From positions 1-11,340 of the forward strand of contig JAKJAE010000067.1 of assembly GCA_022707665.1 (NCBI GenBank): a stretch of 11,340 nucleotides of DNA. Direction: 5' to 3'. The notes under the pieces were generated by a model, which did not search any database, was not told where the DNA came from, and was given only the letters and a program-made list of their open reading frames with translations. Numbering within the stretch: position 1 is the first letter of the stretch; each line of letters starts with the position of its first letter. Of this stretch, positions 777 to 11,340 are shown one piece after another. This DNA comes from Chloroflexota bacterium (lineage in GTDB: Bacteria; Chloroflexota; Anaerolineae; B4-G1; SLSP01). A program made the position numbers and the translations under genes.

Positions 777-2594
777 ATGCTCACGAAACGACACCTGGGT
801 TGGCTGATGGTTGCAGTGGGGTTCGGGGGTGACCTCGGGATGCTTGTGCTGGGACGTCTCGGCGCCGGCGCGTGGAGTGGTATCGGACCGGTTGAACGCG
901 TCCTGCTGCTGGGAGGCCTCGGGATTGCGCTCCTCGGCATACCCCTCCTTCGGCTCAGGACCGAGCCGGTGGCTGCCGCTACAGAGCCCGGGTACGTCAT
1001 TCCTGACCCCACGCAGACGAACATCTCACCTGTGTGGGTGTGGTTGGCACGTGCAGCGTGCGCTCTGGCCCTTGTGGCCTATCTTGGCTATCTGGCAGTC
1101 TACCTCACCTATGCATTCGACCTCTTCCGCTGGCCCTACGATTACGATCAGGGGGAGAGCTTCGAGCTGTACGATGCCGTGCTTCACAGCCGCGGGGAAT
1201 GGCCCTATCGCGATAGCAGCGCGTACCCGTTCTACGCATCGAACTACCCGCCTGTCTTCCACATCCTCAACATTGCGTTTTTCCCGCTGTTTGGACAGAC
1301 GCTGCTGTCAGGACGCGTGCTTGCCTTCGCGGTCACGCTCCTGACCGCCGGCGCGATTGGCTTGACCGTTCGCCGCAGGACCGGAGGTATCTTCTTGCCG
1401 GTCATCGCGGGTCTGGCTTACCTGGCATCGCCGTTCGTCTATCACGTCGGCCCACTCTGCCGGCAACACCTCACGATGGTCTTCCTGGAAGTGCTCTGCG
1501 TCTACTTCATCGCCGCCTCAACGGAGGGCAAAGATGCCACCCGGAACCTGGTGTTGGGGCTCTTCTTCCTTTTCCTTGCAGGCTATGCCAAGCAACTTGC
1601 TGTCTTCACAGCAGTGGCCGTATTCGGGTATCTCTTCGCCCGTCAACCCATCCGCGCAGTGAAGTCGGCCCTCGGTTTCGGCCTCGTCTTTGGGGTGGTT
1701 TTCGCGCTCATCAACTGGGCTACCCATGGCCACTGGTGGACCAACACCATCGCCGCCAACGTCAACGAGTTCATCCTGCCCCAGCTCGTTGGGCTCTTCC
1801 GAACGTGGCTGAGAGTTCACCCACTCTTCATCATCCTTGCCATAGCCCTCATCGTGTATGAGCTCTACCGCGACCGGGTTTCGCTCTACGCCCTCTGGTT
1901 CCTTGCCACACTGGGCACGGGCATTATGTCGGCGAAATGGGGAGCCGGCGAGGCCTATTGGGTGAGTTCTGTTGCCGCCGCAGTCATCCTCGCCGGGTTT
2001 GCGCTTGGCAAGGTGGAATCGTGGATCAAGGTCCATCGGCCTCGCTGGAGGGGCGCCGTAGCTCTCCTGGTTCCGCTCTTGCTCCTTGGCCAGACGACGC
2101 GTATGCTACACTTGCCCACTGAGGGTCCGGTCTGGGGTGCTGTAGCACGCGCCCTTGGGGTAGCGGAGCAGTCGGCCTACGCGGACTATCCCTACTACGA
2201 CGTCGTTGGCTATTCACAGGTAGGCCATCTGATGCTGCCTCGTGACTACGACGGCGCAGAACGGATTATGGCGTACGTTCGTGAAACGGAGCTGCCTGTG
2301 CTAAGTGAGGAGGCGGCATTCACAATGTTGGCTGGCAAGCCCGTGGTCACCAACCCCACGCAGTTGCTCAACCTTTACAACAACGGGATGCTCGATACGC
2401 AGGCTCTTGAGGCAATGATCCGTGAGGAAGCCTTTGGACTGGTGATCATGCGAGCGCAGTTCTACCCACCACCGGTGCTCGCAGCCATCGGGCAACACTA
2501 TGGACTGGTCGAGCACATTCCGGTGAACGGGTTCAACTACATCATCATGCAACCGTTGGGGCAGCCCGAGACACCTGACAGGTCGGAGCCCTAG
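777..2594 (+). CDS. GT-C-fold membrane glycosyltransferase (GT39/ArnT-like)
   Basis: This is a 605-residue polytopic membrane protein. Hydrophobic segments lie near residues 8-28, 42-60 and 88-114, and many more follow to about 490. The third is followed by a hydrophilic loop with DYDQGE (122-127) and then ELYDAVLHSRGEWPYRD. An acidic pair in the first large outer loop is the usual catalytic signature of GT-C enzymes, which use polyprenyl-phosphate sugars on the outer membrane face. The tail after about 490 is mostly soluble. Two hydrophobic segments and a Pro-rich stretch (61-86) precede the usual first GT-C helix, so the N-terminus is longer than typical. The in-frame frame extends back to 609, but the ATG at 777 is preferred because the promoter TATAAT lies at 764-769. 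The donor and acceptor sugars are unknown. The stop TAG (2592-2594) overlaps the stop of the convergent LCP gene, and no terminator hairpin is evident. Confidence 0.8.
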   Translation: MLTKRHLGWLMVAVGFGGDLGMLVLGRLGAGAWSGIGPVERVLLLGGLGIALLGIPLLRLRTEPVAAATEPGYVIPDPTQTNISPVWVWLARAACALALVAYLGYLAVYLTYAFDLFRWPYDYDQGESFELYDAVLHSRGEWPYRDSSAYPFYASNYPPVFHILNIAFFPLFGQTLLSGRVLAFAVTLLTAGAIGLTVRRRTGGIFLPVIAGLAYLASPFVYHVGPLCRQHLTMVFLEVLCVYFIAASTEGKDATRNLVLGLFFLFLAGYAKQLAVFTAVAVFGYLFARQPIRAVKSALGFGLVFGVVFALINWATHGHWWTNTIAANVNEFILPQLVGLFRTWLRVHPLFIILAIALIVYELYRDRVSLYALWFLATLGTGIMSAKWGAGEAYWVSSVAAAVILAGFALGKVESWIKVHRPRWRGAVALLVPLLLLGQTTRMLHLPTEGPVWGAVARALGVAEQSAYADYPYYDVVGYSQVGHLMLPRDYDGAERIMAYVRETELPVLSEEAAFTMLAGKPVVTNPTQLLNLYNNGMLDTQALEAMIREEAFGLVIMRAQFYPPPVLAAIGQHYGLVEHIPVNGFNYIIMQPLGQPETPDRSEP

Positions 2595-3994
2595 TCACCG
2601 CCCCCGCTCGGGCTGGCGTGCTCAGTTGCGTAGTCCGCCCCCAGGACAATCACGACATCGTGTTCGGCCGTAGGATTGGCCCCATGGACGATGGCCGACT
2701 GTGGGAGCCCGAGAATCGCCAGGATCCGCGCGGCTGTTTGGGGCTTATCGCGATTGAGAATCACCAGCGATGTGTCGTAGTCCGCGCGGTCGGCGTTCTC
2801 GTAGGAGCGGACCTCTACGCCATTTGCCTCAAGTGTCTCCCACGTGGCAAGGGCCAGACCCGGCGTTGTCGTACCGTTCAGCACAGCCACGGTAGCTGCT
2901 TCTTCGCCTACTGTCTGAATGCCATCTGATGGTGCTGTCAATCCGAGGAAGTCGTCTCGGACCTCGCGAATACGGTCGCGGAGCGGGATCAGGATCTGCT
3001 GCTTGTCGGGCGTCTCCGCAAACAGGGTGCATGTCTCGTCGATCACGAACGAATGGCGGCTCTCGTCAGGCACCTTGGTCGCCAGGTCCGCCAGAGCGAT
3101 GATCTCGTCAAGCTTGAGGTTGGGGTCAACCTTCACTGACTCGTCCACGATCTCCCAGATCTCTGCCGCGCGTGCAGCCAACTGCGGCAGAAGTTTCTGA
3201 TCAGTGACCCGGGCCAGGATGGCATCGATCACCTGTTGCTGTCGCCGAGCACGATCGAAATCGCCCCCTGCTGTGTGGCGAACGCGGGCATACTTGAGGG
3301 CCATGTCACCGTAGAAGTGCTGCAGCCCGGCATCAATATGAAGCTGTTCGCAGCCGTAGTCTGGCGTCGGATAGCAGTAGTCGTCGATTGCCTCGGGCAC
3401 ATCGATATCGATGCCCCCGATAAGGTCAACACCATCGATGAAGGCCTGGAAATTGACGCGCACATAGTAGTCGATCTCGACACCCAGGTTGTACTCGACC
3501 GTCTCAACAGCCAGGGCAGAACCTCCGCCGGGATGGCCGTAGCCATCACCCAGGGCGTGCGCGGTATTGATCCGGTTCTCCGTGTAGCCAGGGATTGGCA
3601 CCCAGAGATCACGGGGAATTGACAACAGGCCAGCTCGCATCGTCACCGGATCGAGCGTCGCAAGGATCATCGTGTCCGTTCGCCAAAAGTCATCCTCTTC
3701 CTGCATCCGCTGGTCGATGCCAAGGATGAGCACGGTAACGCGATCGGTGGCGGTCCAGACCGGAATGGCCTCGCCCTTAACGCGTTCGACATTTGGACTT
3801 TCGCCCGTTTCAGGCTTATTGAGGGTGAAATCGGGCAGAAGGTCGGATTCGGAAACCTGTTCGCGCACGCGCTGGAAGACGACAAAGGCGGAGACGCCCA
3901 GAGCAATGAGGTAGATCAGGACCAGGCCTACGCGGATGAGCGTGCTGTAGGGCAGTGAACGCCGCGACGCGCTCGCCGCCACGTTATCTACCAC
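2591..3994 (-). CDS. LytR-CpsA-Psr (LCP) family protein with LytR_C domain, downstream paralog
   Basis: This 467-residue protein has a short cytoplasmic N-terminus, one membrane helix (about 18-40), an outer LCP domain (about 85-265) and a C-terminal LytR_C domain (about 367-455). LCP signatures are LGID (91-94), WRTDTM (104-109), LSIPRDLWVPIPG (124-136, with R128 and D129), NTAH (143-146) and DFDRARRQQQ (245-254, with R248 and R250). These Arg and Asp residues bind the pyrophosphate of the polyprenyl-linked substrate in known LCP proteins, which transfer glycopolymers to peptidoglycan. A loop with C207 and C214 is absent from the neighbouring paralog and could form a disulfide. The GTG start (3994-3992) is preceded by GGAGG at 6-7 nt. 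It lies 36 bp after the upstream LCP gene and is probably co-transcribed with it. Its stop shares CTAG with the convergent GT-C gene. Confidence 0.92.
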   Translation of the reverse strand: MVDNVAASASRRSLPYSTLIRVGLVLIYLIALGVSAFVVFQRVREQVSESDLLPDFTLNKPETGESPNVERVKGEAIPVWTATDRVTVLILGIDQRMQEEDDFWRTDTMILATLDPVTMRAGLLSIPRDLWVPIPGYTENRINTAHALGDGYGHPGGGSALAVETVEYNLGVEIDYYVRVNFQAFIDGVDLIGGIDIDVPEAIDDYCYPTPDYGCEQLHIDAGLQHFYGDMALKYARVRHTAGGDFDRARRQQQVIDAILARVTDQKLLPQLAARAAEIWEIVDESVKVDPNLKLDEIIALADLATKVPDESRHSFVIDETCTLFAETPDKQQILIPLRDRIREVRDDFLGLTAPSDGIQTVGEEAATVAVLNGTTTPGLALATWETLEANGVEVRSYENADRADYDTSLVILNRDKPQTAARILAILGLPQSAIVHGANPTAEHDVVIVLGADYATEHASPSGGGD

Positions 3995-4030: not shown

Positions 4031-5404
4031 TCATGGCACCCCAAAATCCTGTCCCAACACAACGAGAATGTCATAGTCAGCGCCACTATCGGGTGAGCGA
4101 ACGATCGCAGTCTGCGAAAGGCCCAACGCGCTAAGTACGACCTCCAGGGTCTGGGGTTTGTCTCGGTTCGTGATCACCTGCGTAGCAGCATAGTCCTGAC
4201 GGTCGGCATTGCCTACATACACCACATCAACCGAGGCTGCGCGCAAGAGATCCGCAGAAGTGCCGGCCAGACCGGGCCGCGTCGTACCGTTAAGCACGGC
4301 CACGGTGGCGACCTCGGGCGTAGGCGTAGGCACAGGGATTGTGGTCGAATCGGGGAGTGTGACCGTGGGCACGTCAGCCGACCAGACGTAGTCGCGGACT
4401 TCCCTGATCCGGTCACGCAAGGGTACCAGCACCTGAGCGCCATCGGGCGTCACCCATGGCTGGGTGCACGTCTGGTCGATCACGCCGGTTCGAATCGTGT
4501 CTCGGTCAACGGAAGTTGCAAGGTTACCCAATGCCAGGATCTGATCAAGAGCCAGATCGGTGCTAACCGAGGACTGGATCGTTGCGTAGAGCTCTGGAGC
4601 AGTCCGGGCCAGTTGCGGCAGCATGTCCAGAGAAGTGACCCTGTCCAGGATTGCCATCATCACCTGTTGCTGGCGTCGTGCCCGGTCGAAGTCGTTGCTG
4701 GTATGGCGCGTGCGCGCGTACTTGAGTGCCATCTCGCCGTCGAAATGCTGCCAACCGGCCTCGATGTGCAGAGGGTCGTAGCCGTATGCGTGGTCGGGAT
4801 AAAGGGGATCGTCGATTGTCTCTTCAACGTAGACGTCGATGCCCCCGATTTGGTCTACCAGCGTGACGAAAGCCTGGAAGTTGATCCGGACATAGTAGTC
4901 GATGGGTACGCCAAGGTTGTATTCGACAGTTTCGACGGCGAGGCCAGGACCGCCCCCGTCGTAGTCGTAGAGATCGCCCAGGAAGTGCGCCGTGTTGATC
5001 CGGCCATCCTTGTGACCAGGAATAGGTACCCAGAGGTCGCGTGGAATGGAAAGGACGCCGGCCTGTCGCAAGGCCGGGTCGACCGTGAGGAGCATCATGG
5101 TGTCCGTGCGCCAGGGGCCCGTCTCCTGAGCCCGCTCATCCACACCCAGGAGAAGAACGGTGACCCGACCCTGCCCACTCCACGTAGGCACCAACTGCCC
5201 AAATCCATAGGTGACGTTCTCGCTGGGTTGTGTATTCCCTGGCACGCCTGGTGATACGCCTGGGGTGGCCAGGCTTCCACGGACCCAGCGGAATAGGAAG
5301 AGGATAGCAGCAGCGCCGATACCCAGCAACAACAGTGCCAGAGCCGCTGCAGCGAGGACCGGCGTCTTCGATGTCCGTCCATACGTTCGTCGTCTCGTTA
5401 CCAT
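4031..5404 (-). CDS. LytR-CpsA-Psr (LCP) family protein with LytR_C domain, upstream paralog
   Basis: This 457-residue protein is built like the gene that follows it: Arg-rich N-terminus, a membrane helix (about 15-40), an LCP domain (about 80-258) and LytR_C (about 367-453). Key residues are D89, WRTD with R99 and D101, SIPRD with R122 and D123, and DFDRARRQQQ with R241 and R243. An uncharged Pro/Thr linker (about 349-364, containing PVPTPTPE) joins the two domains; the paralog's linker lacks the Pro-Thr repeats. A GTG at 5431 would add nine residues, but ATG 5404-5402 is preferred. It has AGGGGG 9 nt upstream, whereas the GTG lies only about 6 nt after the predicted transcription start. The likely role is ligation of a secondary wall glycan to peptidoglycan on the outer face of the membrane. 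Long identical blocks shared with the neighbour point to tandem duplication. Confidence 0.92.
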   Translation of the reverse strand: MVTRRRTYGRTSKTPVLAAAALALLLLGIGAAAILFLFRWVRGSLATPGVSPGVPGNTQPSENVTYGFGQLVPTWSGQGRVTVLLLGVDERAQETGPWRTDTMMLLTVDPALRQAGVLSIPRDLWVPIPGHKDGRINTAHFLGDLYDYDGGGPGLAVETVEYNLGVPIDYYVRINFQAFVTLVDQIGGIDVYVEETIDDPLYPDHAYGYDPLHIEAGWQHFDGEMALKYARTRHTSNDFDRARRQQQVMMAILDRVTSLDMLPQLARTAPELYATIQSSVSTDLALDQILALGNLATSVDRDTIRTGVIDQTCTQPWVTPDGAQVLVPLRDRIREVRDYVWSADVPTVTLPDSTTIPVPTPTPEVATVAVLNGTTRPGLAGTSADLLRAASVDVVYVGNADRQDYAATQVITNRDKPQTLEVVLSALGLSQTAIVRSPDSGADYDILVVLGQDFGVP

Positions 5405-5413
5405 AGTTCGGTT

Positions 5414-5419
5414 CCCCCT
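5414..5419 (-). promoter_or_regulatory. Ribosome binding site that fixes the start of the upstream LCP gene
   Basis: On the minus strand AGGGGG (5419-5414) sits 9 nt before the ATG at 5404. It favours that start over the in-frame GTG at 5431, which has no purine-rich site before it. Confidence 0.6.
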
Positions 5420-5443
5420 GTGCGGTGCCACAGGGCGATCAGG

Positions 5444-5471
5444 ATTATACCACGCACCATAGGTCTGACAG
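5444..5471 (-). promoter_or_regulatory. Extended -10 promoter of the LCP gene pair
   Basis: On the minus strand CTGTCA (5471-5466, 4 of 6) and a perfect TATAAT (5449-5444) are 16 nt apart, and TGG directly before TATAAT forms an extended -10 (TGnTATAAT). Predicted transcription start is near 5437, giving a leader of about 33 nt to ATG 5404. The -35 lies in one arm of a perfect inverted repeat, so a dimeric regulator bound there would block it. Confidence 0.6.
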
Positions 5472-5486
5472 CCTAAGCTGTCAGAC
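5463..5486. repeat. Perfect 10-bp inverted repeat over the GT4 stop codon and the LCP -35 element
   Basis: The arms are GTCTGACAGC (5463-5472) and GCTGTCAGAC (5477-5486) around CTAA. The stop codon of the GT4 gene falls in the loop and the left arm holds the -35 of the LCP promoter. It could be a transcript hairpin ending the upstream unit, although no T-run follows on either strand, or an operator for a dimeric repressor. Both are inferences from symmetry and position. Confidence 0.7.
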
Positions 5487-6630
5487 TTCGAATCGTCGCA
5501 TCCCAGCGAGCTACGGCGGCATCGACGTCGTAGGTCGTGGTCACGAAGGCCCGCGCAGCCTCGGCCATCTGGGCCCGGGCCGCGGCGTCCTCCAGTAGGG
5601 CCAAAATGGCGGCGGCAAAGTCGTCGGGGGCATCCGCCGTGACCAAATGGACTCCTGGCTCCCCGCCAAGGCCGTGGTTACACACAGTCGTAGCGACCAC
5701 CGGCACGCCCATTGCCATCGCATCGATCACCTTCTGGAGTAGACCCCCCGCGACCAGCAAGGGCGATACGAACACCGTAGCAGCCCGGTACCATGGCGCG
5801 AGGTCGTCGACAAAGCCTGTCACGACAACGCGGTCCCCATCGGCGCGATTGACCAGCGCCGCCTGCGGCCCACCACCGACGATGTACAGGCGCACATCCG
5901 GCCTCTGGGCTGCTACACGTGGCCAGACACAATCGAGGAACCACATCGCGCCCTGGTGATTGTGGTCGCGCGACATTGCGCCCACGAAAAGCAGGTTAGG
6001 CCCACCGTCGACAGCAGGGGCAACGGTGTCTGACGAAAGGGCGGGCGACAAGGGAACCAGCAAGGGTGTCACCCCACCCATGGCATCGCGGAGCAGGGAG
6101 CGATCGCCTTCGGAGATAGCGAGCACGACGTCGTAACGACTGGCAATCCAGGGCTCCACTCGCCTCAGGAGCAGGCGCTGGAGGCGCGCTAGCAGGCGGC
6201 GCAGCCCCCTGAGTCGGCCCAACCGCTGCTCGATCAGGAACCAGTTAAGGTCCTGGGTACGATAGGATGCAGGCGGCCGGCTCAGGCCAAGCGCAACCAC
6301 AGCAGTCTGAGTTGTCTCCACGTGAAGCAGATCGGGCCGCACTTCCCTCAACGCGCGTCGCAGCGTTGCCCGAAACGCGAGGTAGCTGCGAATGAAAGCT
6401 ATGACGCGCGGTCCCTGCATGGTCCGGTGGTGCGGCGTCGTATACACAGCCTCACAGATGGCAGCCGCAGCCGGCAGATGCTGGCGCTCGTCAGCAGCCA
6501 ACCGTGCTACGAGCGTCAACCGATGCCCCCGTCGATGGAGCGCCTCCATCAGGCCGAACAAAGACTCCCCCCCGGCATGACCGACCGAGGGGGCGGGGAA
6601 CTGCTTATAGGCAACCAGAATGTGAGCCAT
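5473..6630 (-). CDS. GT4-type glycosyltransferase (GT-B fold)
   Basis: This 385-residue protein lacks a signal peptide and membrane helices and is probably cytoplasmic or membrane-associated. The N-terminal Rossmann half begins MAHILVAYKQFPAP and has the Gly-rich GHAGGES (17-23). A very Arg/Leu-rich stretch (about 135-160) may contact membrane lipid. The nucleotide-sugar half has LLFVGAMSRDHN (213-224), LYIVGGGP (248-255), VVVTGFVDDL (268-277) and VIDAMAMGVPVVAT (301-314). This resembles GT4 enzymes of exopolysaccharide loci. The EX7E motif is degenerate: the usual second Glu is D303 and the first position is Gly. ATG 6630 has only a distant GGAG (13 nt upstream). The gene starts 28 bp after the RNase J stop, so co-transcription with RNase J is plausible. 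It and the following LCP genes make sense as a surface-glycan set; the sugar is unknown. Confidence 0.85.
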   Translation of the reverse strand: MAHILVAYKQFPAPSVGHAGGESLFGLMEALHRRGHRLTLVARLAADERQHLPAAAAICEAVYTTPHHRTMQGPRVIAFIRSYLAFRATLRRALREVRPDLLHVETTQTAVVALGLSRPPASYRTQDLNWFLIEQRLGRLRGLRRLLARLQRLLLRRVEPWIASRYDVVLAISEGDRSLLRDAMGGVTPLLVPLSPALSSDTVAPAVDGGPNLLFVGAMSRDHNHQGAMWFLDCVWPRVAAQRPDVRLYIVGGGPQAALVNRADGDRVVVTGFVDDLAPWYRAATVFVSPLLVAGGLLQKVIDAMAMGVPVVATTVCNHGLGGEPGVHLVTADAPDDFAAAILALLEDAAARAQMAEAARAFVTTTYDVDAAVARWDATIRSLTA

Positions 6631-9185: not shown

Positions 9186-9318
9186 GGCTCTTCATCTGCA
9201 CCCCTGTCTTCTGCGTCTCCCCCTCGGTGCGGTCCGGCGCGTCACACCGCAACTGGACAACCCCGCCCCCGCGGCCACACTCCCAGGTAGCGTTCACCCA
9301 TCAGCAAGGAGTTTGTCC

Positions 9319-11340
9319 ATGTTCGATCTGAAGGAAACGTTCCGCCTGTCCGACCTGCGCGTTCGTGCCCCCTACATCCTTCCCGACCCAGCCACACAGA
9401 CCTACTACCTATGCACATCGCTGGGCAAACGTGTCGGTGTCTACCACAGCACTGACCTTGAAAACTGGAGCGGCCCCGTGACGGTCTTCGAGGCCCCCGC
9501 CGACTTCTGGGCACAGCGCGGCATCTGGGCACCGGAGATGCACCGGTATCGCGGGCGCTACTACCTCTTCCTGACGTTCAATACCGACATCCCCCTTCCC
9601 GGAAGTGATGCAGCAGAGATCCCACGGCCGGCTGACTGGCCCCCACGGGTGAAACGTGGCTCGCAGGTGCTGGTAGCCGATTCGCCTCTGGGACCCTTCC
9701 GCCCATTCAAGAACCGTGCCCATACCGCCGCCGACCAGATGACACTCGACGGCACCCTCTGGGTCGAGGATGACGTGCCCTATATGGTCTACTGCCACGA
9801 ATGGGTCCAACTGGGCGATGGCACAGTCGAGGCTATCCGACTGAGCCCCGATCTATCGGAGCCTGCTGGCGAACCGATCATCCTGTTCAGGGGCAGCGCG
9901 GTCGCTCGCGGACTCCGTGGCCACGACCGGTTTGTGACAGACGGACCCTTCCTCTATAGGACCCGCACGGGCCGCCTGTTGATGCTCTGGTCCACTTTCG
10001 GCTGGCAGGGCTATATGACGCTCATCGCAGCCTCGGAGTCCGGATTGCTGCAGGGGCCCTGGACGCAGCTACCGCGCCCGCTATTCTACGACGATGGCGG
10101 TCACGCCATGGTCTTCCGCACTTTCGACGAACGGCTCATGCTGATCCTGCACCACCCGAACAAGAGCCCAGGAGAACGCGCGCTGCTCTTCGAACTCGAG
10201 GACACCGGCGACACGCTCGCCATCGTGCAGCGACATCCTGCAGAGTATCCCTTCGGAGACCCTGATCTGCCGATCGAAGCACGGGTCGACGACATCCTGT
10301 CCAGAATGACACTCGACGAGAAGGTAGCCTGTCTCGGCACCATACCTAACGTACCGCGGCTGGGTATCTGGGGAACGGGCCACGTCGAGGGCTTGCACGG
10401 TCTCGCGATGGGAGGCCCGGGCGGATGGGGGGGCAGTGACCCGATCGCCACGACCCAGTTTCCGCAGGCAATCGGCCTGGGCGAGACGTGGGATCCCGAC
10501 CTCATCGAACGTGCAGCAGCCGTCGAGGGATATGAAACGCGCTATATGGCGCAGGCAAGAGCCTACCGGCGCGGGGGCCTGGTCGTGCGGGCACCGAACG
10601 CCGACTTGGGCCGTGATATCCGCTGGGGCCGCAACGAAGAGTGCTACGGGGAGGATGCGTTCCTCAACGGCACGCTCGTGACGGCATTCGTCAGGGGGCT
10701 GCAGGGCGACGATCCACGCTACTGGCAGACCGCGTCACTCCTGAAGCACTTCCTCGCCAACAGCAACGAGGACGGGCGCGAGCGCTCGTCCTCGGACTTC
10801 GACGAGCGGACCTTCCGTGAGTACTACTCGGTGCCCTTCAGGATGGGCGTCGTTGACGGTGGAGCTCGAGCCTACATGGCAGCGTACAATGCCTACAATG
10901 GCATTCCGTGTACTGTGCACCCCATCCTCAAGGACATCACAGTCGATGAGTGGGGCCAGGACGGCATCATCTGCACCGATGCAGGGGCGCTGACGATGCT
11001 CGTGACCGAGCATCACTACTACCCCGACCATGAGATGGCAGCGGCTGCCTCGATCAAGGCCGGCACCAACCAGTTTCTCGACCGCTATCGCGAAGGAACC
11101 CTGGGGGCCCTTGCGTCGGGCCTGCTCACGGAGGCTGACATTGACGCGTCTCTGCGCGGCGTCTTCCGCGTTATGATCCGCCTTGGGTTGCTCGATCCGC
11201 CTGAACAGGTACCCTACAGCACAATCGGGCAGGGAGACGAGCCAGAACCCTGGCTCAGCGAACGCCACCGTGCGTTGGCACGCCTGGTGACACAGCGATC
11301 CATCGTGCTGCTCAAGAACGCGGGCAGGCTGCTACCACTT
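9319..11340 (+). CDS. GH43-like / GH3 glycoside hydrolase fusion (partial, runs off right edge)
   Basis: A single frame of 674 codons without a stop carries two enzyme domains. Residues 1 to about 300 resemble the five-bladed propeller of GH43. YILPDPATQTYYL (19-31), IWAPEMHRYRGRYYLF (70-85), LDGTLWVEDDVPYMVYCHEW (143-162; D144 the usual pKa modulator, E161 the usual general acid) and DGPFLY (208-213) support this. The general-base Asp expected in RDP is Ala (RAP, A17). From about 315, PFGDPDLPIEARVDDILSRM begins a classic GH3 domain. It has EGLHG (357-361), GRDIRWGRNEECYGED (431-446), KHFLAN (476-481), AYNAYNG (522-528) and nucleophile candidate D554 in ICTDAGA. SIVLLKN (661-667) marks the start of the second GH3 domain, cut by the window end. 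There is no signal peptide, so it is probably cytosolic and acts on imported oligosaccharides. AAGGAG 7 nt before the ATG supports the start. The exact sugar (xylose, arabinose or glucose) cannot be told. Confidence 0.9.
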   Translation, partial: MFDLKETFRLSDLRVRAPYILPDPATQTYYLCTSLGKRVGVYHSTDLENWSGPVTVFEAPADFWAQRGIWAPEMHRYRGRYYLFLTFNTDIPLPGSDAAEIPRPADWPPRVKRGSQVLVADSPLGPFRPFKNRAHTAADQMTLDGTLWVEDDVPYMVYCHEWVQLGDGTVEAIRLSPDLSEPAGEPIILFRGSAVARGLRGHDRFVTDGPFLYRTRTGRLLMLWSTFGWQGYMTLIAASESGLLQGPWTQLPRPLFYDDGGHAMVFRTFDERLMLILHHPNKSPGERALLFELEDTGDTLAIVQRHPAEYPFGDPDLPIEARVDDILSRMTLDEKVACLGTIPNVPRLGIWGTGHVEGLHGLAMGGPGGWGGSDPIATTQFPQAIGLGETWDPDLIERAAAVEGYETRYMAQARAYRRGGLVVRAPNADLGRDIRWGRNEECYGEDAFLNGTLVTAFVRGLQGDDPRYWQTASLLKHFLANSNEDGRERSSSDFDERTFREYYSVPFRMGVVDGGARAYMAAYNAYNGIPCTVHPILKDITVDEWGQDGIICTDAGALTMLVTEHHYYPDHEMAAAASIKAGTNQFLDRYREGTLGALASGLLTEADIDASLRGVFRVMIRLGLLDPPEQVPYSTIGQGDEPEPWLSERHRALARLVTQRSIVLLKNAGRLLPL

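Follow-up and report, generated by a model that had tools for sequence, protein, structure and literature searches.

Does a gene that joins a GH43-type domain to a GH3 domain in one chain encode a bifunctional glycosidase? The question is raised by the window, the whole 11,340-base contig JAKJAE010000067.1 (C477) of a Chloroflexota draft genome (3.06 Mb in 513 contigs, 73% complete), in which a frame runs open from ATG 9319 to the last base, 11340, as 674 codons without a stop. An earlier note had described this frame as an in-frame fusion whose GH43 half would debranch a decorated oligosaccharide before channelling it to the GH3 half. The fusion is confirmed here. The division of labour is not supported for the window protein, in which Ala17 occupies the GH43 catalytic-base position, so that the two active sites are not both intact. 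With a probability of about 0.6, the gene belongs to an Anaerolineae GH43–GH3 fusion family, and the window member works in the cytosol as a GH3 exo-glycosidase with an attached GH43 propeller that is catalytically dead.

Both domains score well above their Pfam cut-offs: Glyco_hydro_43 (PF04616) spans residues 26–283 at 95.7 bits (cut-off 32.2), and Glyco_hydro_3 (PF00933), the GH3 N-terminal domain, spans residues 378–618 at 113.7 bits (cut-off 27). The GH43 family fold is a five-bladed β-propeller. The GH43 half of the window has this fold, and a model of it aligns structurally with the arabinanase AbnB, residue 8 falling on residue 18 at the start and residue 304 on residue 315 at the end. 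Neither a stop nor a frameshift occurs at residues 290–320, and the GH43 match is strong; both outcomes that the earlier note had named as refuting are thus absent. The GH3 C-terminal part, to which the acid/base Glu belongs, is absent from the window because the contig ends; a full-length relative used as query did not recover the missing 3′ end from the same genome, matching only two other places at 44% and 39% identity. The full-length relative P0003 gave a predicted structure with a predicted template-modelling score (pTM) of 0.88. The features discussed below are as follows.

9306..9311, + strand: AAGGAG, probable ribosome-binding site read from the sequence, 7 nt upstream of ATG 9319
9319..11340, + strand: GH43–GH3 fusion gene, 5′ 674 codons, with the 3′ part past the contig end
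9319..10218, + strand: GH43 half of the fusion, residues 1–300
9367..9369, + strand: codon 17, GCC (Ala), GH43 catalytic-base position by alignment; Asp in 143 of 143 relatives examined
9748..9750, + strand: codon 144, Asp, retained at the GH43 pKa-modulator position; also Asp in all 143 relatives examined
9799..9801, + strand: codon 161, Glu within a CHEW motif; this Glu is conserved in 142 of 143 relatives
9940..9942, + strand: codon 208, Asp, at the site occupied by the general-acid Glu in other GH43 enzymes; this Asp is shared by 142 of 143 relatives
10219..10272, + strand: short linker, about residues 301–318, joining the GH43 and GH3 domains
10273..11340, + strand: GH3 N-terminal catalytic domain from about residue 319 onward, with the start of the next domain, ending at the contig end
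10978..10980, + strand: codon 554, Asp, matching in alignment the GH3 nucleophile (Asp281) of the Thermotoga maritima β-xylosidase

The GH43 active site and the GH3 half

On alignment and modelling, residue 17 is the GH43 catalytic-base position. In profile alignments with 5c0p, 3kst and 4qqs it falls on the Asp of an RDP/ADP/GDP motif where the propeller begins; the two remaining printed alignments begin later. The starting offset with AbnB, taken from the alignment ranges, places it on Asp27, and the AbnB entry 3d60 was deposited as a 'catalytic mutant (D27A)'. Asp is present at this position in 23/23 complete fused proteins, including a 91% identical sister, and in 120/120 other GH43 rows. 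The codon is GCC in the window, whereas of four other genomes three have GAC and one has GAT, and a single A-to-C change in the window lineage would account for the replacement of Asp by Ala. Because the catalytic base is missing, the window domain is filed as a GH43-fold domain rather than as a GH43 hydrolase, even though the pKa-modulator residue Asp144 is retained.

Mutagenesis of studied GH43 enzymes indicates what such a change should do. According to PMC12493170, substituting Ala for any one of Asp168, Asp283 or Glu344 in AtAbf43C, a GH43_26 arabinofuranosidase of Acetivibrio thermocellus, abolished all activity on pNPAra, and the same loss followed a base-to-Ala mutation in SaAraf43A. 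All three residues are thus required in AtAbf43C, which is joined to CBM42 rather than GH3; AtAbf43C is not among the five printed alignments of a second profile. By analogy, Ala17 should stop hydrolysis by the GH43 half of the window protein. Alignment against the 143 relatives gave no evident substitute base in this half: at positions with at least 85% consensus, the only departures are A17, D152, V195, R197 and E271, and none of these is a new Gln or Asn. Three other places in the same genome match the GH43 profile, one of them strongly (C462, 328.5 bits), so that losing this activity would not leave the genome without a GH43 enzyme.

Further departures from other GH43 enzymes are shared by the whole group. 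The acid position is Glu in four of the five printed alignments (3kst, 4nov, 4qqs and 9nxj) and Asp in 5c0p; correspondingly, the Glu-type motifs VAEGP, NEGP, GEGP and VNEGP contrast with VTDGP and VTDAP in this group and 5c0p. The general-acid Glu is thus absent from the window, which has Asp208, but as a group-wide trait this may be a working variant. Asp17, Asp144, Glu161 and Asp208 are all kept in 22/23 complete fused rows. Entry 5c0p, named 'Endo-arabinase' and from Bacteroides thetaiotaomicron, is the nearest solved GH43 structure and is likewise a GH43-type propeller; it has the base Asp, and its solved chain includes no GH3 partner, whereas the window has Ala17 and a GH3 domain. No paper citing the code 5c0p was found in the literature searched.

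The visible GH3 half is normal as far as its residues indicate. Asp554 aligns with the 7zb3 Asp that is Asn in the D281N mutant 8c7f; this alignment was printed for P0003, which has the same residue as the window. The T. maritima GH3 β-xylosidase of these entries is about 35% identical in structural alignment, and its solved chain lacks a GH43 propeller; together with other GH3 β-glucosidases and β-xylosidases it is the nearest known counterpart of this half. The window keeps 104 of 105 conserved GH3 positions. It is proposed that the GH3 half most likely still takes terminal β-linked sugars (xylose or glucose, for example) off imported oligosaccharides, and that the GH43 propeller would be retained in a non-catalytic role, either holding sugar or serving as a structural module.

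The arabinan or arabinoxylan substrate named in the earlier note is not established, as none of the eight NCBIfam models listed reaches its cut-off. The best of these matches would assign the protein to the xylan 1,4-β-xylosidase Xyl3A; this assignment was rejected, the score being 194.7 bits against a cut-off of 1250.

Distribution and origin of the fusion

The same domain order occurs in other genomes, as had been anticipated. A search of about 5.8 billion proteins, in which 7,997 candidates were scored, returned 7,927 matches, of which the best 120 were listed. Among these 120, PF04616 and PF00933 occur together in the top 26, which are 69–99% identical; 24/26 also have the GH3 C-terminal domain PF01915 annotated, and 19/26 span 1,004–1,015 residues. 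The exceptions include P0005 and P0011, which have 613 residues with large gaps, P0025, which lacks its N-terminus, and P0017, which lacks its C-terminus. Of the remaining 94, 93 are GH3 proteins in which no GH43 domain was called; the last, P0037, is a GH43 match on a 1,600-base contig that continues into the start of GH3. From these relatives, the full-length protein would have about 1,005 residues, with the propeller at its N-terminus connected by a short linker to a complete GH3 enzyme.

The uninterrupted junction recurs in full-length kin and in four assemblies (JALOOJ010000017, JADHXD010000029, JAIOAX010000045 and JAIOAS010000022), and is therefore not a local error; an assembly accident as the source of the fusion is ruled out by the same observation. 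On this comparison of sequences, the fusion is a real, inherited and uncommon architecture. No GH43–GH3 fusion was found in the titles and abstract openings of the literature searched, although absence there is not absence from print.

Genome searches point to a narrow distribution. A scan of GTDB species genomes with a query covering GH43 and the junction confirmed 401 relatives, and 4 of the best 80 of these 401 loci are fused, with records titled Anaerolineae (two) and Chloroflexi (two). Three of the four are the same records as G021, G001 and G002 of a 24-genome family search, which found the fusion in four genomes (the window's own and these three). In two further family genomes, G003 and G004, pieces at contig ends match residues 7–50 and 4–52 at 68% and 63%, respectively. 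A wide spread is not supported: among 400 genomes across the phylum, the window's own included, residues 1–350 gave two matches at E ≤ 1e-40, one in the own genome and one 45% identical in a 288-residue frame, with no further fusion.

Phylogenetic trees of the two halves, both midpoint-rooted, group the fused proteins together. The GH43 tree (69 rows, including 45 of the 120 listed GH43 matches) has a fork with support 100/99 over 26 fused or cut-fused rows together with P0123, P0124 and P0125, which are listed without GH3; P0037 and P0122 were counted as fused since both continue into GH3, and P0124 is labelled partial by its source. The GH3 tree (72 rows, including 48 of the 93 listed GH3 matches) has an SH-aLRT value of 100, from a quick method with no bootstrap, over 24 fused rows and P0028, which retains about 40 GH43-domain residues. 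P0005 and P0011 were left out of both trees, P0025 out of the GH43 tree and P0010 out of the GH3 tree. The simplest reading of these trees is a single origin followed by later losses or cut contigs, and together with the searches they suggest that the Anaerolineae fusion family most likely arose once. Since both active sites look intact in most members, the ancestor was probably bifunctional, and debranching followed by channelling would be plausible for those kin that keep Asp17.

An origin from adjacent genes was also considered and is not supported. Among the 76 unfused loci of the best 80 of 401, many of which have short flanks, a similar GH3 frame flanks the GH43 gene once (L111, 28% identity). 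In six of these 76 loci (L044, L051, L052, L082, L084 and L094), the GH43-matching stop-to-stop frame exceeds 650 residues (676–1,038) and has no GH3 match, so that GH43 may be joined to other domains there.

Constraint, decay and competing explanations

Fifty-six GH43 positions show conservation of at least 98% across 118 other GH43 rows; the window departs from the conserved residue at two of them (D17A and W197R), compared with 12 in P0027, and R197 is also found in 8/23 fused rows. The ratio of non-synonymous to synonymous substitution rates (dN/dS) between the window and four relatives is 0.14–0.22 for GH43 and 0.05–0.10 for GH3, similar to the 0.08–0.19 and 0.08–0.09, respectively, of three pairs without the window. 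Such low values indicate that the GH43 half is not plainly drifting. In a relative-rate comparison bearing on whether GH43 might evolve faster in the window branch, changes in residues 1–300 specific to the window or to P0002 were counted with five outgroups, giving 11:11, 13:4, 14:6, 13:8 and 13:3 (window:P0002). From these comparisons it seems that the propeller is being kept folded, or that its base was lost only recently.

Two close relatives share the change. P0005 (99% identical to the window) and P0011 (92%) also have Ala17, and both lack residues 89–160, in frame, and the stretch from 632 to the last domain. They end in the same shifted, shortened C-terminus; their first 88 residues are identical and their middle parts differ. 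P0011 has 36 changes from the window, including P210L, N281Y, C552Y and H571P. The gaps are known from the protein sequences alone and may be deletion alleles or gene-prediction artefacts. Introns were sought in the window DNA, and no GT...AG pair fitting the joins was found in the window codons at the gap edges. A separate branch, P0027/P0028, has a decayed GH43 half and a sound GH3 half, about 40 GH43 residues being left in P0028 unless its 11,124-base contig begins there.

Several observations weigh against a working GH3 enzyme with a dead propeller. The highest GH43-to-GH3 distance ratios of 276 pairs are those of the window with P0002 (3.42) and P0003 (3.29), against a median of 1.83, and relaxed constraint on GH43 is thus possible; pairwise dN/dS, for its part, averages over long branches (dS 1.2–1.9) and cannot date the base change. 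The two closest database proteins with Ala17, P0005 and P0011, lack large pieces of both halves, and the GH3 C-terminal part of the window gene lies unseen past the contig end; the gene as a whole may therefore be in decay. Occurrence of the fusion is patchy, with 4/24 family genomes and 2/5 in the window's genus holding it, all of them drafts. The 5c0p-type group departs from textbook GH43 enzymes, for which reason its mechanism may be modified, and no member of the group with measured activity was found. Finally, PMC7939473 reports that enzymes of GH43 subfamily 24 dispense with the base Asp and rely on a Gln, so the absent Asp alone is no proof of inactivity.

Should the gaps in P0005 and P0011 reflect real deletions, erosion of the gene is under way in near relatives, and the window could hold a pseudogene in the making; loss of the GH43 base would have been the first step, with the entire gene now degrading across the species group. 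The Ala17, the residue 89–160 gap, the loss from 632 and the shifted C-terminus that the two share, the harsh changes in P0011, and the decay of the GH43 half in the P0027/P0028 branch are all consistent with this, yet the window copy lacks those gaps, retains nearly all of its conserved GH3 positions and has dN/dS below 0.25 in both halves, and the gaps themselves may be artefactual; erosion is judged unlikely. Slightly less probable still is that the GH43 half remains an enzyme with another base, for instance Glu161 or an amide as in GH43 subfamily 24, making the protein bifunctional as first proposed. Retention of Asp144, Glu161 and Asp208 and the GH43 dN/dS are compatible with it, and the published account of Pc1,3Gal43A, a subfamily 24 exo-β-1,3-galactanase, describes the same absence of the base Asp as in the window. 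In that account, however, the whole subfamily lacks the Asp and uses Gln, whereas in the fusion group the window, P0005 and P0011 are alone in lacking it; with Asp in all 143 other relatives examined, the group seems to need Asp17, and the five departures offer no amide in its place.

A sequencing or assembly error at codon 17 in an otherwise ordinary bifunctional fusion is very improbable. The difference is a single base in a draft contig of a 513-contig genome, and residues 486–499, unlike fetched kin, hint at a possible local assembly problem elsewhere in the gene. However, recurrence of Ala17 in P0005, which has three member sequences on four contigs from the sources jgi and lgn, and in P0011, from one 150,732-base ncbi contig, makes an isolated sequencing error unlikely. 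As the first 88 residues of P0011 equal those of the window, P0011 may not be fully independent, and recent exchange of this piece is possible.

A broader proposal, that at least two separate branches are turning a bifunctional fusion into a single-activity GH3 enzyme (the window's branch by a base change and P0027/P0028 by broad decay), is put forward more tentatively, at somewhat below even odds; in it the window propeller would be kept as a sugar-binding module, a hydrolase converted to a carbohydrate-binding domain within one chain. The fusion family places two glycosidases on one natural scaffold, and its members vary at the GH43 catalytic base. In the sister P0002, whose GH43 half is 84% identical, the residue is Asp where the window has Ala, providing a natural counterpart of the pairs made by laboratory mutagenesis; should the Ala form still bind sugar, it would exemplify a stage in the conversion of an enzyme domain into a binding domain. 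Domain annotation alone would label the window protein bifunctional, which calls for caution.

Cellular location and gene neighbourhood

The earlier note's observation that no signal peptide is apparent holds by a hydropathy proxy. In the first 45 residues of the window protein, the most hydrophobic 12-residue stretch has a mean hydropathy of 0.54. A strongly hydrophobic N-terminus is found in 0/26 fused proteins (the window counted in and P0025 out), with a highest 12-residue mean of 1.37, and the corresponding mean is at least 1.8 in 90/119 GH43 matches. Because the hydrophobic N-terminus is missing, the fused enzymes are probably cytosolic and would act on imported oligosaccharides, most of those GH43 matches probably being exported.

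Upstream of the fusion gene, the window contains a cupin gene, a tRNA-Glu, RNase J and a glycosyltransferase, neighbours that give no hint of a sugar-degradation cluster. In G021, a genome of the same genus (L036:1402-8932), a gene weakly matching AXE1 (acetyl xylan esterase) is followed by one weakly matching Melibiase, which overlaps the fusion gene by 17 bases, and this stretch is likely an operon. In G001 and G002, two large conserved genes, 90% and 85% identical between the genomes, adjoin the fusion gene or sit one gene away. Neither gene (L037:4291-6357 and 10547-12388; L038:9266-11341 and 4230-6065) has a Pfam match over cut-off, and the L037 copies of both have no PDB sequence match either.

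Within the fusion gene, the window and P0005 differ at six residues outside the gaps, and every one of these lies in residues 486–499 (window 10774-10815). The DERTF motif of this stretch is found in 0/239 other fetched proteins, and position 498 is Leu in 114/116 relatives; either gene conversion over a short tract or a chimeric local assembly is possible. Elsewhere in the window, 2591-3994 (− strand) and 4031-5431 (− strand) are tandem genes that we take to resemble LytR-CpsA-Psr cell-envelope proteins.
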